DNA from: an uncultured Gemmatimonadota bacterium
GTDB lineage: Bacteria; Gemmatimonadota; Gemmatimonadetes; Gemmatimonadales; Gemmatimonadaceae
Length of the DNA: 42,923 bases
Reading direction: 5' to 3'
Assembly (NCBI GenBank): GCA_946480295.1
Contig: CAMLIT010000023.1
Coordinates: forward strand, 1 to 42,923
Below the pieces are notes generated by a model. The model was given only the letters and a program-made list of their open reading frames with translations, was not told the DNA's origin and ran no database searches. This document shows positions 1,384 through 25,499 of this stretch, one piece after another. The stretch's first letter is position 1. Every line of letters begins with the position of its first letter. A program made the position numbers and the translations under genes.

Positions 1384-1764
1384 GTGACACATCAGGACCT
1401 CGGCCGCCGCGAGCGGCAGATCATGGACGCCGTCTACCGGCTCGGCCGCGCGACGGCCGCCGACGTGCGCGCCGAGCTCCCCGACCCGCCGAGCTATTCC
1501 GCCGTCCGCGCCATGCTCCGCCTGCTGGAGGAGAAGGGGCTGCTCGAGCACGAGCAGGACGGCCTGCGGTACGTCTACCGACCCACGATCGCGCCGGATA
1601 GGGCGCGCCGGTCGGCGCTCATGCACCTCGTGCGCACGTTCTTCGGCGGCTCGCCGGCGCAGGCCGCGGCGGCGCTGCTGGAGATGTCGGATGCCGAGCT
1701 CTCGCCCGCGGACCGGGCGCGGCTGGCGAAGCTCATCGAACGAGCCAAGGCGGAGGGGAGATAG
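1384..1764 (+). CDS. BlaI/MecI/CopY-family transcriptional repressor
   Basis: A 126-residue winged-helix repressor of the BlaI/MecI family (usual length 120-130). The N-terminal DNA-binding domain is recognisable from LGRRERQIMDAVYRLG through the recognition helix region PSYSAVRAMLRLLEEKG and wing LEHEQDGLRYVYRP. The C-terminal dimerisation helices end with LAKLIERAKAEGR. The start is GTG at 1384, just downstream of the tandem operator. No strong Shine-Dalgarno is visible and the transcript leader would be short. It is followed after 1 bp by an M56 peptidase gene, the standard repressor/sensor-protease pair, so it probably represses its own operon until cleaved or displaced. Confidence 0.93.
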   Translation: MTHQDLGRRERQIMDAVYRLGRATAADVRAELPDPPSYSAVRAMLRLLEEKGLLEHEQDGLRYVYRPTIAPDRARRSALMHLVRTFFGGSPAQAAAALLEMSDAELSPADRARLAKLIERAKAEGR

Positions 1765-1765
1765 C

Positions 1766-4207
1766 ATGCTGACCATCGTGTCGCTCGCCGTGAAGTCCAC
1801 GCTCATCCTCGCCGTCGCCGCGATCGTCGCGTTCCTCATGCGGCGTCGCTCGGCGGCGGCGCGGCACCTGGTGTGGAGCGTCGCGCTCGCATCGTCGCTC
1901 GCGCTTCCGGTGCTCGTTCCCCTCGTCCCGTCGTGGCGAGTGAACCTGCCGCACGCGGGGGACGACGAGCTGGTCGCCACGCCCGCCGTCGCGGCGGCGG
2001 TGCGGGTCGTTCCCTCGACGCCGCCGGTCGCGGCTCGCGCCGTCGCGGCCGCGCGTGCATCGGCGGCACCGCGTGCCGCCGGAGCCGTCGTCGCCTCCAC
2101 GGCGCCGGCCGCCGTGGACGTCGCGGTGCACGTGTCGCGTCACCCGTACGTCGCGTTCGCGGAGCCGGGAAGGGCCGAGCTCTCCGCGCCCATGTCCGGG
2201 TCGTGGGGCTCGGCGGCGCCGTGGGTGCTGCTCGCGTGGGCGGCGGGCGCGATCGTGCTGCTGACACGCGAGCTGCTGGCCGTCTCCGTCATCTCCGGGA
2301 TCGCGCGGCGCGCCGTGCCCGTGGAAGCCGACCCCGCGCTGGACCACGCCATCGCCGACGCGATCGCACGCTCGACGGTGGACGTCGTCGAGGTGCGCAC
2401 GAGCAGCGAGATCGACGTGCCGGTGGCGTGGGGGATCATCCGGCCGGTCGTGCTCGTGCCGAGCGAGGCCGCGGAATGGACGATCGATCGCTGGATGGTG
2501 GTGCTCGATCACGAGCTGGCGCACCTCGCGCGGCGCGACGTCTGGATGCACCTCATGTCGCGGGTCGCGCGCGCCGTGTACTGGGTGAATCCCCTCGTCT
2601 GGCACGCCGAGCGACAGCTGCGCCTCGAATCCGAGCAGGCGTGCGACGACGTCGTGCTCGCGCGCGGGACGCGGGCGACGCGTTACGCGGAGGAGCTGCT
2701 CGAGGTCGCGCGCGCCGTATCGGCGGCGTCGTACGCGGCCGTCGCGCCGGGCTTCGCCAGCGAACGGCGGATCGAGCGTCGCATCGCGGCGCTCCTCGAT
2801 CCACGCATCCCACGACGCCTGACGACCGCCGGCGACGGCGCACTGGCGGCGTTCGCCATCATGGCGGTCGCGCTGCCGCTCGCCGCGATGCAGCCGGGCG
2901 GAGACCGCCCGCCGGCAGCGCGCTGGACGGCGCCGACGGCGGCGCCGGCGCGTGCCGTGGCCGTGCGCGCCGAGGGGCACGTGACCCGCGCGGTGGTCGC
3001 CGTGAGTGGCGGGAGCGGCGGTGGAGAGATCACCCTCAGCGCCGTGGACGTGGCGCCGCCGAGCGAGGGTGCCGTCGCCGAGCAGAGCTGCGCGCCCGAC
3101 GGCGGTGCGTCGAGCAACATGGAGAACGACGATGGCGGCGTGCGCCGGTGGGAGGTGCACTGGACGGGCGCGGACTGCGCGGTGGACCTGCGCGCGCAGG
3201 GGAAGATCGACTTCACCGACGACCTCTCGGACGTGCGGGCGATCGCGCCCGGCGGGTGGCTCGATCTCTCGGTGCGCGAGGGCGATCGGCTCACGCGATT
3301 GGTGCTGCGGCCGGGCGCGGGTGGCGCCATCGACCGCCACTACACGGTCAACGGCGCGGCGCAGCGCTGGGACGACGGCGCGCGGAAGTGGTTCGCCGGC
3401 TTCCTGGTCGATCTCGATCGTCGCACCGCGTTCGCGGTGGACTCGCGCTTCCCGCGGCTGATGGCGCGGGGCGGGCCGAACGCCGTCCTCGACGAGGCGG
3501 CGCGCATGACGGGGGACTACGCCCGCGGGGTGTACCTGCGGCGGCTGATCGACAGCACGACGCTCGATCGCTCGCAGGAGCGTCGCGCGATCGAGCTGGC
3601 GGGGAGCGCGATGCGGAGCGACTACGAGCGCGCGCGGGTGCTCGTGGCGCTGGCGACGAAGGATGGGCTGCCGGATCCCGAGATGCGGGCGACGTACCTG
3701 CGCGCCCTCGACGGGATGCGGTCCGACTACGAGCGCAACCGCGCGATCCACGCGCTGCTCGACCACTCGCGGCCGACCGCGGCGGAAGCGGGCGCGATCC
3801 TCGCCGCCGCGTCCAGGCTGCAGTCGGACTACGAGCTGTCGCGCACGCTCGTCGACCTGGCGGGTCGGAAGCTGGTCGGGCCGGCGCAGGCCGACGACTA
3901 CCTGACGGCGGCGACGCACCTCCGCTCGGACTACGAGCGCTCGCGATCGCTGCGCGCGCTGCTCGGCGCCGGCACCCTGGACGACGCACAGGTGGGCCGC
4001 CTGATCGCGGCGGCCGCCGCCATCCAGAGCGACTTCGAGCGCGCGAACGTCCTCGTCGACGTGGCGCACCGGTACGCGCTCGCCGGCGCCGCGCGCGCGG
4101 CCTACGAGCGGGCGGCGAACGCCATCCGCTCGGGGTTCGATCGCGGGCGGGCGCTCGCCGCGCTGCGCGGCGATCGCGACAGCTCCACGGTCAGGATGTT
4201 TCGCTGA
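1766..4207 (+). CDS. M56 (BlaR1-type) membrane metallopeptidase with C-terminal SDYER repeats
   Basis: An 813-residue membrane metallopeptidase of family M56. The start at 1766 follows a strong GGAGGGGAG and lies 1 bp after the blaI stop. Hydrophobic segments occur at residues 1-40, 155-175 and 360-380. The zinc motif HELAH (about residue 248) is followed by EQACDD, which could supply the third ligand. A penicillin-binding sensor domain, as in BlaR1, is absent. The periplasmic-side C-terminus instead carries a beta-rich stretch (about 400-560), then six to seven copies of a 34-36-residue helical repeat whose signature is S-D-Y/F-E-R followed by R-x-L-x-A-L (about residues 575-808). The likely role is sensing an envelope signal and cleaving or inactivating BlaI; the ligand is unknown. 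Confidence 0.88.
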   Translation: MLTIVSLAVKSTLILAVAAIVAFLMRRRSAAARHLVWSVALASSLALPVLVPLVPSWRVNLPHAGDDELVATPAVAAAVRVVPSTPPVAARAVAAARASAAPRAAGAVVASTAPAAVDVAVHVSRHPYVAFAEPGRAELSAPMSGSWGSAAPWVLLAWAAGAIVLLTRELLAVSVISGIARRAVPVEADPALDHAIADAIARSTVDVVEVRTSSEIDVPVAWGIIRPVVLVPSEAAEWTIDRWMVVLDHELAHLARRDVWMHLMSRVARAVYWVNPLVWHAERQLRLESEQACDDVVLARGTRATRYAEELLEVARAVSAASYAAVAPGFASERRIERRIAALLDPRIPRRLTTAGDGALAAFAIMAVALPLAAMQPGGDRPPAARWTAPTAAPARAVAVRAEGHVTRAVVAVSGGSGGGEITLSAVDVAPPSEGAVAEQSCAPDGGASSNMENDDGGVRRWEVHWTGADCAVDLRAQGKIDFTDDLSDVRAIAPGGWLDLSVREGDRLTRLVLRPGAGGAIDRHYTVNGAAQRWDDGARKWFAGFLVDLDRRTAFAVDSRFPRLMARGGPNAVLDEAARMTGDYARGVYLRRLIDSTTLDRSQERRAIELAGSAMRSDYERARVLVALATKDGLPDPEMRATYLRALDGMRSDYERNRAIHALLDHSRPTAAEAGAILAAASRLQSDYELSRTLVDLAGRKLVGPAQADDYLTAATHLRSDYERSRSLRALLGAGTLDDAQVGRLIAAAAAIQSDFERANVLVDVAHRYALAGAARAAYERAANAIRSGFDRGRALAALRGDRDSSTVRMFR

Positions 4208-20859: not shown

Positions 20860-22305
20860 TCAGCCCTTCATCGACGCGCGATACTTCGCGATCGGGATCG
20901 CCGTCGAGCCGTACGGGATGTTCTTCCGCGCGAACAGCGCCGCGCGTTCGGCGTCCGCGCTCTTCCGGTCGCCCATCATCTTGTAGGCTTCGATGAGGCC
21001 CAGCTGCGCATACGGGTTGCTCCCGCCCTGTTTCAGCTCGGCGATGGCCTCGGCGGGCTTCTTCTCCGCGAGCAGGGTGAGGCCGGTCATCCGATGCACG
21101 TTCGGGTCGCGAACGTCCGCCGGCACCGAGTGCGTGAAGCGGACATACTCCTCGAGCGCACGGCGAGCCCGCACACCGTCGCCGAGCAGCGCGAACGAGA
21201 TCACGCGGTTGTCCACGAGCAGGCCGGCGGAGGAGCCGAGGCGCTGCGCCGCCGCGAGGTGGGCGTCCACGCCGCCGGCGTCGTGCACGGCCGCGGCGAG
21301 GAGCGCCATGTTCAGGTGCGCGGTGGCGGCCACGTCGGTCATCCCGCCCGCCTCGGCTTCGCGCGCGAAGGCGGCCAGGGAGTCGACCGCCTGCGACAGC
21401 TTCCCCTCGTGCAGGAACGTGACCGCGCGCGAGATGCGGTACCCCGTCCGCCGTGCGGAGTTGGGCGAGAGCGCGAGCGCGCTGTCGAACGTCGCGCGCG
21501 CACGCGCGTACATGCCCTCACGGATCGCGATCTCCGCCTTCAGCGCGTACGCCCACTCGTTGGTGGGCGACATCGCCGTCGCCTCGTCGAGGTGCTGCAA
21601 CGCCTCCTCGTGCCGGAGGAGCCGCTCGAGCACGTGGCCCATGATGGTGTGCCCGGCGGCCGATCCCGGGGCGAGGCGCATGGCGTCCCGTGCCGCGTTC
21701 AACGCCTCGTCGGCGGTCGCCGGTGAGAACTGACCGAAGCCGTCCGCCGTCAGGAAGAAGGCCAGCCAGAATCGCGCGGGAGCGTAGTCGGGGAAGCGCG
21801 CGGCCGCCTCGCGCAGCGCGCGGATCCGTTCCTCGCCGAGGAGCGAGGTCGCGCGGTCCACCGCGACGCGCGGGTCGCCGGGCGTGAGCTCCGTCGCGAG
21901 GGCGAAGAGCTTCGCCGCGTTCTGAATCCGCCCGGCGTTCTCCTCGCGCATCGCCTCGACGAGCACCGCTTCGGGAAGCGACGCGGTGGCGGCGTCGCTC
22001 GCGGCGCGATCGAACTCCGCCGCCGCGGCGGGGCCGCCGCGCAGCCGGGCGAGCCACGCCCGGGCGAGGCCGAACTGGGGATCGAGGTCCAGCGCGCGTT
22101 GCGCGTGCTCCGCGGCGGTGGTGAACGACCACGCGAGCTGGTCGTCGACCGCCGCCTGCAGCTCGACGATCGCAGCGCCGCGCTGGTTCGCGGGGGCGAG
22201 TCGTGCCGCGGTCGCGCTCTGTTGCTGGACCTGTGCCGCGACCGGAACCGCCGTCGCCGCGGCAAGGATGAGGGACAGAGCCACCGCGTGTTGCCTAACG
22301 GCCAT
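20860..22305 (-). CDS. exported TPR-repeat protein
   Basis: A 481-residue protein with a Sec signal peptide (cleavage near VPVAAQ, residue 24) and helical tetratricopeptide-like repeats through most of its length. Recognisable repeat units include AEHAQRALDLDPQFGLARAW, EEALQHLDEATAMSPTNEWA and ARATFDSALALSPNSAR. No catalytic motif was found, so it is likely a periplasmic or surface scaffold. The start at 22305 is preceded by GAGGAGGG, and a perfect 7-bp hairpin (22317-22334) sits immediately upstream of that Shine-Dalgarno. An ATG at 22374 is in frame but would put 23 hydrophilic residues before the signal peptide. Confidence 0.85.
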   Translation of the reverse strand: MAVRQHAVALSLILAAATAVPVAAQVQQQSATAARLAPANQRGAAIVELQAAVDDQLAWSFTTAAEHAQRALDLDPQFGLARAWLARLRGGPAAAAEFDRAASDAATASLPEAVLVEAMREENAGRIQNAAKLFALATELTPGDPRVAVDRATSLLGEERIRALREAAARFPDYAPARFWLAFFLTADGFGQFSPATADEALNAARDAMRLAPGSAAGHTIMGHVLERLLRHEEALQHLDEATAMSPTNEWAYALKAEIAIREGMYARARATFDSALALSPNSARRTGYRISRAVTFLHEGKLSQAVDSLAAFAREAEAGGMTDVAATAHLNMALLAAAVHDAGGVDAHLAAAQRLGSSAGLLVDNRVISFALLGDGVRARRALEEYVRFTHSVPADVRDPNVHRMTGLTLLAEKKPAEAIAELKQGGSNPYAQLGLIEAYKMMGDRKSADAERAALFARKNIPYGSTAIPIAKYRASMKG

Positions 22306-22377
22306 GGCGCCCTCCTCGTGCCCATGCGGGCACGCTGTGGGTGGGTAAGTGCGCCGGCTCAGCAGGGTTTCCATAAT

Positions 22378-22660: not shown

Positions 22661-22745
22661 CGGCCATGATGCCCGCTCAGCGAAGGACCCGGCGCATGGC
22701 GCGACCAGCCGCACCCCAGGCACCGCTCCCCGCCCCCCGCCCTCC

Positions 22746-22774
22746 TTGCGCTTCTCCCGCCCCGGCGCGACAAT
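22746..22774 (+). promoter_or_regulatory. candidate promoter of the thr leader-thrA transcript
   Basis: TTGCGC (22746-22751) and GACAAT (22769-22774) are 17 bp apart. The expected start site is about 22781, the first base of the leader-peptide GTG, which would make the leader peptide's message leaderless. Confidence 0.55.
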
Positions 22775-22780
22775 TCACCC

Positions 22781-22873
22781 GTGACCACCGCCAACGCGCC
22801 CCTCGGCCTCATCGGCATCATGTGCATGCGCACCACGATCATCATCACGTGGTGGGGGCGCGCGCACGAGTAA
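22781..22873 (+). CDS. Thr/Ile-rich leader peptide of the thrA attenuator
   Basis: A 30-codon open frame from GTG 22781 to TAA 22871-22873, with five Thr and five Ile codons. Six consecutive regulatory codons, ACC ACG ATC ATC ATC ACG (Thr-Thr-Ile-Ile-Ile-Thr, 22832-22849), lie inside a hairpin and just before the antiterminator arm. Internal ATG starts at 22820 and 22826 would give 17- and 15-residue peptides with the same codons. No Shine-Dalgarno is visible for any of them; the GTG coincides with the predicted transcription start. The composition matches the role of ThrL in enteric bacteria, and the downstream gene is the same enzyme, aspartokinase/homoserine dehydrogenase. Confidence 0.8.
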   Translation: MTTANAPLGLIGIMCMRTTIIITWWGRAHE

Positions 22874-22911
22874 CGGTCGAGCACGACGACACGGCACACT
22901 CGCGCGGCCCC
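22831..22911 (+). promoter_or_regulatory. pause hairpin and antiterminator of the thr attenuator
   Basis: Hairpin 1:2 pairs CACCACG (22831-22837) with CGTGGTG (22848-22854) perfectly, with the three Ile codons as its loop. The antiterminator pairs GGGGCGCGCG (22855-22864) with CGCGCG/CCCC (22901-22906 and 22908-22911): ten pairs with one bulged G at 22907. Its 3' arm is the same strand that forms the left arm of the terminator, so the two are mutually exclusive. Confidence 0.72.
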
Positions 22912-22936
22912 GCTGAAACGGGGCCGCGTTCTTTTT
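22903..22936 (+). terminator. attenuator terminator upstream of thrA
   Basis: A perfect 10-bp GC stem, arms 22903-22912 and 22919-22928, with hexaloop CTGAAA, is followed by TTCTTTTT (22929-22936). This is a textbook intrinsic terminator placed between the leader-peptide stop and the thrA start at 22950, in the same direction, where only a regulatory role makes sense. Confidence 0.92.
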
Positions 22937-22949
22937 CCGGGATGCGCAG

Positions 22950-25499
22950 ATGACGTACGACGGGAACGGGAACGGCAACGGCAAGCCCGCGCCACGGCAG
23001 GAACGCCGGCGCCAGCGACCGACGATCCACAAGTTCGGCGGCGCCGCGCTCGCCGACGCCGCGGCGATCCGCCAGGCGGTGGACATCGTCGCCACGCGCG
23101 CGACGCCCCCCACCGTCGTCGTCGCCTCGGCGCTCGCCGGCGTTACCGACGCGCTCTTCGCCATCGCCGGCCGCGCGGTCGCCGGCGACGACACCGGCGA
23201 CGAGATCGCCGCGCTGCGCGCCCGGCACGCGGAGGCGGTGCGCGCGCTCCTCGACGGGGCGGAGGCCGACGCCGTCGCCCGCGCGGTGGACGACGCCTTC
23301 GACGAGCTGGAACGCATCGCCGGCGGGCTGCGCGCGCTGCGCGAGCTCACGCCGTCCATGCGCGACGCCGTCGTCGCGCGCGGGGAGCGGCTCTCGGCGC
23401 GGCTCCTCGCCGCCGCGCTCTGCGCCCGCGGGATCGCCGCGCGCTACGTCGACGCGACCGAGGTGGTCCGCGCCGACGACCGCGCGGGGAACGCCTCGCC
23501 CGATCTCGCCGCCACCGACGCGAACGCCCGGCGCGTCCTCGTGCCCCTTCTGCGCGAGGGGATCGTCCCCGTCGTCCCCGGCTTCATCGCCGCCGCGCCG
23601 TCGGGCCAGCTCGTCACCCTCGGCCGCGGCGGCTCGGACCTCACCGCCACCGTGCTCGGTCGCTCGTTAGGTGCCGCCGAGGTCGTCCTGTGGAAGGACG
23701 TCCCCGGGATCCTCACCGCCGATCCGCGCGCCGTCCCCGAGGCGCGCGTCGTCCCCCAGCTCAACGTCCGCGAGGCCGCCGAGCTCGCGTACGCCGGCGC
23801 CAAGGTCCTCCACCCGCGCGCCCTCATCCCGTTAGGCGACCGCGCCCGCGTCTTCGTGCGCCCCTTCGCCGACCCGGCCGCCGAGGGCACCGAGGTCTCC
23901 CAGCGCCGCACCCTCGCGCGCTACCCGGTGAAGGCCATCTCCGCCGCGAGCGGCCACTCGCTCGTCACCATCACGGGGCGCGGCATGCTCGGCATCCCCG
24001 GCATCGCCGCGCGCACCTTCGCCGCGCTCCACCGCGCGCAGATCTCCGTCTCGCTCATCTCCCAGGCGTCGTCGGAGCAGTCCATCTGCCTCGCCGTCCC
24101 GGAGACCGCGGTCGCCGAGGCGGAGGCGCGGCTCCTCGAGGCGTTCGCCGACGAGATCCGCCGCGGCGACATCACCGGCGTCGAGGTGAAGCGCGCGGTG
24201 AGCACGATCGCCGTCGTCGGCCTCGGCATGGCCGGCGTCCCCGGCATCGCCGCGAAGCTCTTCGGCGCCGTCGCCAAGGGTGGGATCAACGTCATCGCCA
24301 TCGCGCAGGGGGCGTCGGAGTTCAACGTCTCCTTCGTCGTCGACGCGCAGGACGCGGTGGCGGCGCAGCGGCGCATCCACTCCGCCTTCCAGCTCGACAA
24401 GATCGGCGGCGGCGCCGCCGTGCGCGGCAATCACATCGACATCGTCCTCCTCGGTTTCGGCCAGATCGGCCGCGAGCTGTCGGAGCAGCTCACCGCCACC
24501 CGCCGCAGCGGCCACGGCGTGCGCGTCGTCGGCATCATCGACCGCTCGGGGTACGTCTTCGAGCAGCGCGGCATCGCCGCCGGGCGCGTGCGCGAGCTGG
24601 CGCGGGCCAAGGCGCGCGGAGTCCCTCTCGCCGAGTGCGAGGGCGGCACCACGGCGTCGCCTGACGAGGCGCTCCGCACCATCGCCAGCCACGCCCTCTC
24701 CCGCCCGCTCCTCGTCGACGTCACCGCCGCCGACACCGGGCCGCTCCTCGAGACGGCGCTCGCCCACGGCATCGACCTCGTCCTCGCCAACAAGCGCCCC
24801 CTCGCCGGGCCGCGCCGCTGTGCCGAGGCGCTGTTCGCGCACGCCCTCGCCCGCGGGCGGCGCGTCTACCACGAGGCGACGGTCGGCGCCGGGCTGCCGA
24901 TCATCGACACCTTCCACAAGCTCGTCGAGAGCGGCGACGAGGTGCTGCGCATCGAGGGCTGTCCGTCGGGGACGCTCGGCTTCCTCCTCGGCGAGCTGGG
25001 TCGGGGCACGAAGTTCAGCGCCGCCGTGCGCGACGCGATGAAGCGCGGCTACACCGAGCCCGATCCCCGCGACGACCTCTCGGGGATGGACGTCGCCCGC
25101 AAGGCGCTCATCCTCGGTCGGCTGCTCGGCTTCGCCGGGGAGCTGGACGACGTGAAGGTCGAGTCGCTCGTGCCCGACGAGGTGCGCGGCGTGCCGGTCG
25201 AGGAGTTCATCGCCCGCCTCGAGGAGTTCGACGCCGAGTGGGAGCGGCGCGTGCGCGACGCGGCGGCGCGCGGCAAGGTGCTGCGGTACCGGGCGACGGC
25301 GACCCGGCGCTCCGTGCGCGTGGGGCTCGTCGAGATCGACGCCTCGAGCCAGCTCGCGTCGCTCACCGGCACCGACAACCAGTTCTCGTTCTGGACGCAG
25401 CGCTACAGCACCAACCCCCTCGTCATCACCGGCCCGGGCGCGGGGCGCGAGGTCACGGCGGCGGGGGTGTTCAACGATGTGCTGAAAGCGCGCGCCTAA
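22950..25499 (+). CDS. thrA: bifunctional aspartate kinase / homoserine dehydrogenase
   Basis: An 849-residue fusion enzyme catalysing the first and third steps from aspartate to homoserine (threonine, methionine and isoleucine supply). The kinase domain covers about 25-300, with HKFGGAALADA, the R-G-E-R-L-S segment near 145 and GRGGSDLTATVLG near 225. Two ACT-type regulatory repeats lie at about 325-465 (ITGRGMLGIPGIAARTF and VVGLGMAGVPGIAAKLF). The homoserine dehydrogenase follows from about 495: GFGQIGREL, the ANKRP motif near 615, EATVGAGLPIIDT, and DPRDDLSGMDVARK with catalytic Asp/Lys. The usual KFGGTS is KFGGAA here. A Gly-Asn-rich N-terminal tail (DGNGNGNGK) is extra. No good Shine-Dalgarno is seen. 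Two TTA codons occur, both in CGTTAGG. Confidence 0.96.
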   Translation: MTYDGNGNGNGKPAPRQERRRQRPTIHKFGGAALADAAAIRQAVDIVATRATPPTVVVASALAGVTDALFAIAGRAVAGDDTGDEIAALRARHAEAVRALLDGAEADAVARAVDDAFDELERIAGGLRALRELTPSMRDAVVARGERLSARLLAAALCARGIAARYVDATEVVRADDRAGNASPDLAATDANARRVLVPLLREGIVPVVPGFIAAAPSGQLVTLGRGGSDLTATVLGRSLGAAEVVLWKDVPGILTADPRAVPEARVVPQLNVREAAELAYAGAKVLHPRALIPLGDRARVFVRPFADPAAEGTEVSQRRTLARYPVKAISAASGHSLVTITGRGMLGIPGIAARTFAALHRAQISVSLISQASSEQSICLAVPETAVAEAEARLLEAFADEIRRGDITGVEVKRAVSTIAVVGLGMAGVPGIAAKLFGAVAKGGINVIAIAQGASEFNVSFVVDAQDAVAAQRRIHSAFQLDKIGGGAAVRGNHIDIVLLGFGQIGRELSEQLTATRRSGHGVRVVGIIDRSGYVFEQRGIAAGRVRELARAKARGVPLAECEGGTTASPDEALRTIASHALSRPLLVDVTAADTGPLLETALAHGIDLVLANKRPLAGPRRCAEALFAHALARGRRVYHEATVGAGLPIIDTFHKLVESGDEVLRIEGCPSGTLGFLLGELGRGTKFSAAVRDAMKRGYTEPDPRDDLSGMDVARKALILGRLLGFAGELDDVKVESLVPDEVRGVPVEEFIARLEEFDAEWERRVRDAAARGKVLRYRATATRRSVRVGLVEIDASSQLASLTGTDNQFSFWTQRYSTNPLVITGPGAGREVTAAGVFNDVLKARA

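Follow-up and report, generated by a model that had tools for sequence, protein, structure and literature searches.

What controls the expression of thrA in an uncultured Gemmatimonadota bacterium is the question raised by a stretch of contig CAMLIT010000023.1 (assembly GCA_946480295.1), whose full 42,923 nt we refer to as the window. The gene (22950..25499, plus strand) encodes a bifunctional aspartokinase I/homoserine dehydrogenase I (AK-HSD I) of 849 aa; a preliminary description of the DNA had named it aspartokinase/homoserine dehydrogenase, and Pfam and NCBIfam NF006959 (738.5 bits versus a cut-off of 726) identify it here. Its ATG at 22950 lies 13 nt past the T tract of an intrinsic terminator, which is itself preceded by a short open reading frame (ORF) containing a run of Thr and Ile codons. 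The preliminary description took this arrangement for a Thr/Ile attenuator, a reading that is supported by the joint recurrence of its parts upstream of three other thrA genes. Based on modelling and comparison, we propose that thrA is probably controlled by ribosome-mediated transcription attenuation, to which we assign a probability of about 0.9.

The leader ORF extends on the plus strand from a GTG at 22781 to a TAA at 22871-22873 and encodes 30 aa (MTTANAPLGLIGIMCMRTTIIITWWGRAHE). Its codons ACC ACG ATC ATC ATC ACG occupy 22832-22849, so that six of eight codons specify Thr or Ile (Thr-Thr-Ile-Ile-Ile-Thr), and both the ORF and the codon run are as previously described. Between this run of end-product codons and thrA, the terminator scan identified a single intrinsic terminator in the 1-kb region, where 0.2 were expected (22902..22936, plus strand); its hairpin (22902-22929) has 11 pairs, a loop of 6 and the tail TCTTTTT, with the T tract at 22930-22936. 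The terminator with its T tract had been recognised before, but as a perfect 10-bp stem beginning at 22903. A TPR gene upstream of the leader (20860-22374) lies on the minus strand and points away, leaving no plus-strand domain-matched gene for the terminator to end. The 5′ arm of the terminator overlaps the 3′ half of an antiterminator (segment 3, 22898..22911), which pairs with a 5′ half located in the last leader codons (segment 2, 22855..22871) over 14 pairs with a duplex energy of -26.1 kcal/mol, both halves being on the plus strand. The ten pairs originally described, with one bulge, are present, but the helix is longer than had been thought. Markov resampling of the 310-nt region, repeated 3000 times, produced the codon cluster 17 times, a terminator 21 times and never both. 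The fold of the whole leader, in a window of 72% G+C, is modestly better than that of shuffled sequences (z -1.87; equalled or bettered by 10 of 200 shuffles). Finally, CACCACG at 22831-22837 matches the reverse complement of CGTGGTG at 22848-22854 without exception, which places the Ile codons in the loop of a 7-bp hairpin (22831..22854, plus strand). The pairing proposed earlier is therefore exact, whereas the role of a competing 1:2 stem does not hold: the hairpin ends at 22854 and the antiterminator starts at 22855, so that both can form together, and the role of the hairpin is uncertain.

We infer that the window leader is transcribed and translated, and that ribosomes stall on it in response to Thr and Ile supply, and propose the following hypothetical sequence of events, in which RNA polymerase and a ribosome would travel along the leader together. 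With ample charged Thr-tRNA and Ile-tRNA, the ribosome would reach the stop codon at 22871 and cover 22855-22871; the 22902-22929 hairpin would then fold, and transcription would end in the T tract before thrA. If Thr-tRNA were in short supply, or Ile-tRNA, whose amino acid derives from Thr, the ribosome would stall early in 22832-22849, and the free 22855-22871 segment would pair with 22898-22911 ahead of synthesis of the 3′ terminator arm. With the antiterminator formed first, the terminator would come too late and thrA would be transcribed. The alternating exposure of segment 2, free at the control codons and covered at the stop codon, comes from folding and from a thermodynamic model in which everything between the 5′ end of the RNA and 13 nt beyond the first nucleotide of the A-site codon was blocked, a footprint that we set ourselves. 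For the window and the three other leaders described below, as long as the 3′ arm has not yet been transcribed, the model expects 11.7 to 15 antiterminator pairs at early control codons and 0 at the stop codon. In the window, this number is 13.7 with the ribosome at the first Thr codons, falls to 8.5 at the last one (22847) and to 1.7 at the Gly codon, 24 nt past the first Thr codon, and is 0 from the codon after Gly to the stop, the other three leaders declining to 0 in like manner.

How widely this organisation occurs was assessed using thrA upstream regions from three overlapping genome samples (phylum, 395 genomes; family, 179; order, 288), for which a subset of the matching genomes' loci was read. 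Of these loci, 46 were set aside as duplicates, 4 as too short and 2 for an incomplete N-terminus; loci below 44% identity and a slicing artefact (L159) were dropped as well, which left 104 regions, the window included. At least six Thr/Ile codons in eight were found in four of them, namely the window, L090, L078 and L095 (of which L100 is a duplicate). All four regions contain a terminator, compared with 9 of the 100 others (Fisher p = 1.6e-4, n = 104; p = 1.2e-3 without the window), while the opposite strands of the 105 regions in the set that still contained L159 yielded no codon cluster and one terminator. L090 (MIASSRNTYTRMTTTTTPCRGGGAHSV), L078 (MTPVHRNSMTTRTTSTTGGVAVASE) and L095 (MSMHALRAGTTYTTTTTRVTTTTGRRRSRVR) each have a Thr-rich leader with 7 to 11 Thr codons, followed by antiterminator, terminator (bulged in L078) and thrA in the same order as in the window, and their ThrA proteins are 45-55% identical to that of the window. 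When the 5′ partner was shuffled 500 times, the antiterminator was equalled by 5 shuffles in the window and by 5, 23, 11 and 3 across the four leaders, the window's 5 included (combined p 5.6e-5). Six control terminators upstream of thrA without a Thr leader (L059, L141, L099, L030, L044 and L097; those of L021, L024, L025 and L066 were left out) gave 265, 247, 88, 318, 380 and 186 of 500 (combined p 0.65).

Several observations weigh against attenuation or restrict the form it could take. The Thr/Ile codon cluster is absent from 100 of the 104 regions, so that the stems and codons looked for in related genomes recur in three of them but the device is sporadic for thrA. The two closest ThrA proteins, P0001 and P0002, came without genomic context, so that the comparison covers the leaders of more distant relatives. 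At the last Thr codon, pairing of the antiterminator is partial in the window as well as in L090, where 4.9 pairs are expected, which means that stalling must act at earlier codons. Moreover, the full-length window leader favours the terminator at every modelled position (9.1-10.8 expected pairs at equilibrium); as the finished leader prefers termination, the switch must be kinetic and be decided during transcription. When no ribosome is present, 13.0 antiterminator pairs are expected in the window, 11.1 in L090, 14.3 in L095 and 1.6 in L078. The antiterminator of the first three would consequently form without translation, which suggests that no protector stem enforces termination when the leader is not translated. 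The putative promoter of the window leader, discussed below, also appears weak.

The sporadic occurrence lends some weight to the view that the hairpin is a constitutive terminator or a leftover, that the Thr/Ile codons arose by chance and that thrA is read from another promoter, particularly as nine cluster-free regions (e.g. L059, L141 and L099) have a terminator before thrA without any Thr leader. However, a chance codon cluster is rare (seen once in 2100 resamplings for all regions combined), cluster and terminator occurred together in every one of the four cases, and for five of those nine terminators, as well as for a sixth from a locus with a less similar ThrA, the antiterminator is no better than shuffled sequence, whereas that of the window is. 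We therefore regard this explanation as improbable. Still less credence is due to a ligand-binding riboswitch or T-box acting on the same terminator, with the small ORF being incidental. The architecture of terminator and antiterminator does not by itself identify the sensor, but no Rfam model matched the window at its gathering score, and a relaxed search of 22700-22970 (up to E 10) returned six matches, all below gathering, with neither a T-box nor an amino-acid riboswitch among them; the Thr_leader and T-box covariance models in particular gave no gathering match in the window and are absent from these six. What the four leaders have in common is their codons and geometry, an alignment of the L095 spacer with those of the window, L090 and L078 being unsupported. 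The best of the relaxed matches was BcKCsr2, a Burkholderia sRNA (19.5 bits versus a gathering score of 40, E 0.02, 22822-22934), which covers the whole model and extends over the leader codons to the terminator. This match is probably due to chance, or else a sign that the sRNA is itself an attenuator product. We consider it similarly remote that the leader acts on translation or through Rho rather than through the intrinsic terminator. Leader peptides of cys operons without obvious terminators have been predicted in Actinobacteria (PMC1262725), and bases 22938-22947, just 5′ of the thrA start, are partly paired in the minimum-energy fold; yet the window contains a strong intrinsic terminator with a T tract, and the thrA ATG is unpaired in the same fold.

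Assuming attenuation, its descent can be considered from the ThrA proteins and the spacers between control codons and terminator. P0001 and P0002 are 82% and 67% identical to the window's ThrA, and further matches at about 62% include proteins named after Gemmatimonadales; among the matches listed for the three genome samples, no full-length ThrA exceeds 63% identity, and two partial ones reach 65%. In the ThrA tree, a clade of 29 members with a support of 0.997 unites the window with L090, L078, L051 and others, the three named loci belonging to genomes G075, G345 and G084, all in the family of the 179-genome sample. The window most likely represents a Gemmatimonadota lineage close to this family that is missing from the genome collections searched. 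Spacer homology was evaluated for 15 pairs with 1000 resamplings each. Resamplings as good or better numbered 30 for window-L078, 15 for window-L141, 6 for L090-L078 and 42 for L095-L141, and at least 102 for the remaining 11 pairs (310 for window-L090; 832, 592 and 538 for L095 with the window, L090 and L078). These scores weakly support common descent within the window's clade and do not support descent shared with L095. The best matches of the L095 ThrA are 61-71% identical; the first that carry a taxon name are from Longimicrobiaceae (64 and 62%), and one from Gemmatimonadales (59%) follows further down. Within the 12-genome family of its genome (G286), a full-length AK-HSD was found in one other genome (G147) and is of another type; given this near-absence, the L095 gene may have been transferred or misbinned. 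From the spacer scores and the apparent remnants described next, we read the thrA attenuator as an old element of the window's clade that has often decayed, although it may have arisen separately in each lineage. Promoter-like or hairpin elements precede thrA in L141, L099, L059 and L051, none of which has a usable Thr leader. In L099 (G353) and L141 (G401), a promoter-like site is followed by the terminator 54 and 33 nt on, as counted by eye, and short Thr runs are found in both (TTYT in L141 and TRTIT in L099, the latter frame having no start codon); these elements may be decayed or shortened attenuators. For L073, the sister of L090 in the tree, the contig ends in a T tract upstream of thrA, which fits an attenuator and proves nothing.

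Where transcription and translation of the window leader would start is less clear. The best-scoring candidate promoter, TTGCGC-N17-GACAAT (22746..22774, plus strand), has 7 of 12 consensus matches by hand count, and a consensus promoter scan of the thrA upstream region passed no site. The end of its -10 element is separated from the leader GTG by 6 nt. The same spacing is found for the best -10 site in L095, compared with 3 or 49 nt in L090 and 4 or 28 nt in L078, depending on the start chosen. With 6 nt between -10 and start, the leaders of the window and L095 would be leaderless. The leaderless start suggested in the preliminary description would fit the spacing in these two regions but not that in L090 and L078, and the ilv leaders described below are mixed (1 to 60 nt across 14). 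Leaderless translation of the window leader is unproven, as is a general leaderless rule, the 6-nt spacing being missing from L090, L078 and the majority of the ilv leaders. A little 5′ of the Thr run, the leader peptide contains Met-Cys-Met (22820-22831), whose ATGs could instead serve as later start codons. Met, Thr and Ile are all derived from homoserine. A bolder interpretation would be that Gemmatimonadota possess a minimal attenuator of their own, lacking a 1:2 stem, using the codons after the control codons as half of the antiterminator and being translated from the first nucleotide; in the window's lineage, the segment I-G-I-M-C-M-R-T-T-I-I-I-T would read Ile, Met and Thr and gate thrA by the whole product branch. 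We regard this extension as tentative and rather unlikely.

Confidence in attenuation of thrA is raised by the ilv genes, as branched-chain leaders indicate that this type of control is at home in the family. A search for IlvB in 59 Gemmatimonadaceae genomes (the family of G075) gave 14 loci above the family cut-off, and every one of them has a branched-chain leader and a terminator-like hairpin. In L184 and L188, these directly precede ilvB, and in the other 12 (L235-L246) they precede an ilvD that lies before ilvB; ilvD was identified by Pfam in two loci, by its N-terminus in four and by position in the rest. The leaders, with starts chosen by eye, are 21 to 43 codons long, of which 8 to 17 specify Ile, Leu or Val, counts to which no null model was applied. 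An automated screen flagged 11 of the 12 ilvD leaders, L244 being recognised on inspection. Poor T tracts occur in L184, L235, L239, L240 and L242, and many ilv leaders have an extra hairpin between leader peptide and terminator-like hairpin. A thirteenth region (L247), with an IlvB under the cut-off, was flagged for neither leader nor hairpin. Rfam gave no gathering-score match in L184, L188, L090, L078, L095 or L235-L247. For trpE, a Trp leader and a terminator occurred together in none of 30 loci (54 of the 59 genomes having a match); a terminator-like hairpin was seen in one locus (L212), and two Trp codons close to each other in five.

Elsewhere in the window, the product of 1691-4207 contains an M56 peptidase domain of the BlaR1 type (PF05569), its NCBIfam matches staying under the cut-off.

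The proposed window attenuator is of a well-known kind, situated in a phylum for which we found no report of amino-acid attenuation in the literature searched, most subscription papers being outside its scope; the accessible parts of PMC2965389, PMC4833913 and PMC2864571 do not mention 'Gemmatimon'. Our analysis places predicted textbook amino-acid attenuation in Gemmatimonadota for thrA and for ilvD-ilvB. As some related genomes have the thrA version and most do not, it becomes testable in cultured Gemmatimonadota how an entire regulatory RNA is gained and lost, as does leaderless translation of leader peptides.

Enteric bacteria provide the best-known examples of such a switch: in Escherichia coli, the thr operon is preceded by the thrL attenuator (Rfam Thr_leader), with a Thr/Ile-rich leader peptide before thrA, which encodes AK-HSD I. 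The window likewise has a Thr/Ile-rich leader peptide, an antiterminator and a terminator before a gene for AK-HSD I. It differs from thrL in phylum, in the location of half of the antiterminator inside the last leader codons and in that no competing 1:2 stem is shown; furthermore, the next gene on the strand is not thrB but an Nramp transporter gene, 222 nt after thrA. Leader peptides and terminators outside Proteobacteria, as in the window, have been predicted in Actinobacteria for trp, ilv, cys, leu and some tRNA synthetase genes, thrA not being named in the abstract of that work (PMC1262725). In 2010, the authors of PMC2965389 were aware of no demonstrated leader-peptide system beyond Proteobacteria and Actinobacteria, an atypical ermC leader aside, and their work added Firmicutes. 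The ilvB-OMG and ilvB-II motifs (PMC10272879) resemble the window in having leader ORFs upstream of a biosynthesis gene, which is however ilvB rather than thrA; the ORFs of ilvB-OMG, a motif reported from various phyla, encode many branched-chain residues and Thr. The ilvBNC attenuator of Corynebacterium glutamicum has been tested experimentally, and its leader peptide starts one nucleotide from the transcript start (PMC11857589). It differs from the window, which is known from its sequence, in its branched-chain codons, its ilvB target and its actinobacterial host (PMC11857589); the two are alike in having a short leader peptide, control codons and an overlapping antiterminator and terminator, and the C. 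glutamicum leader provides a precedent for a leaderless start (PMC11857589).

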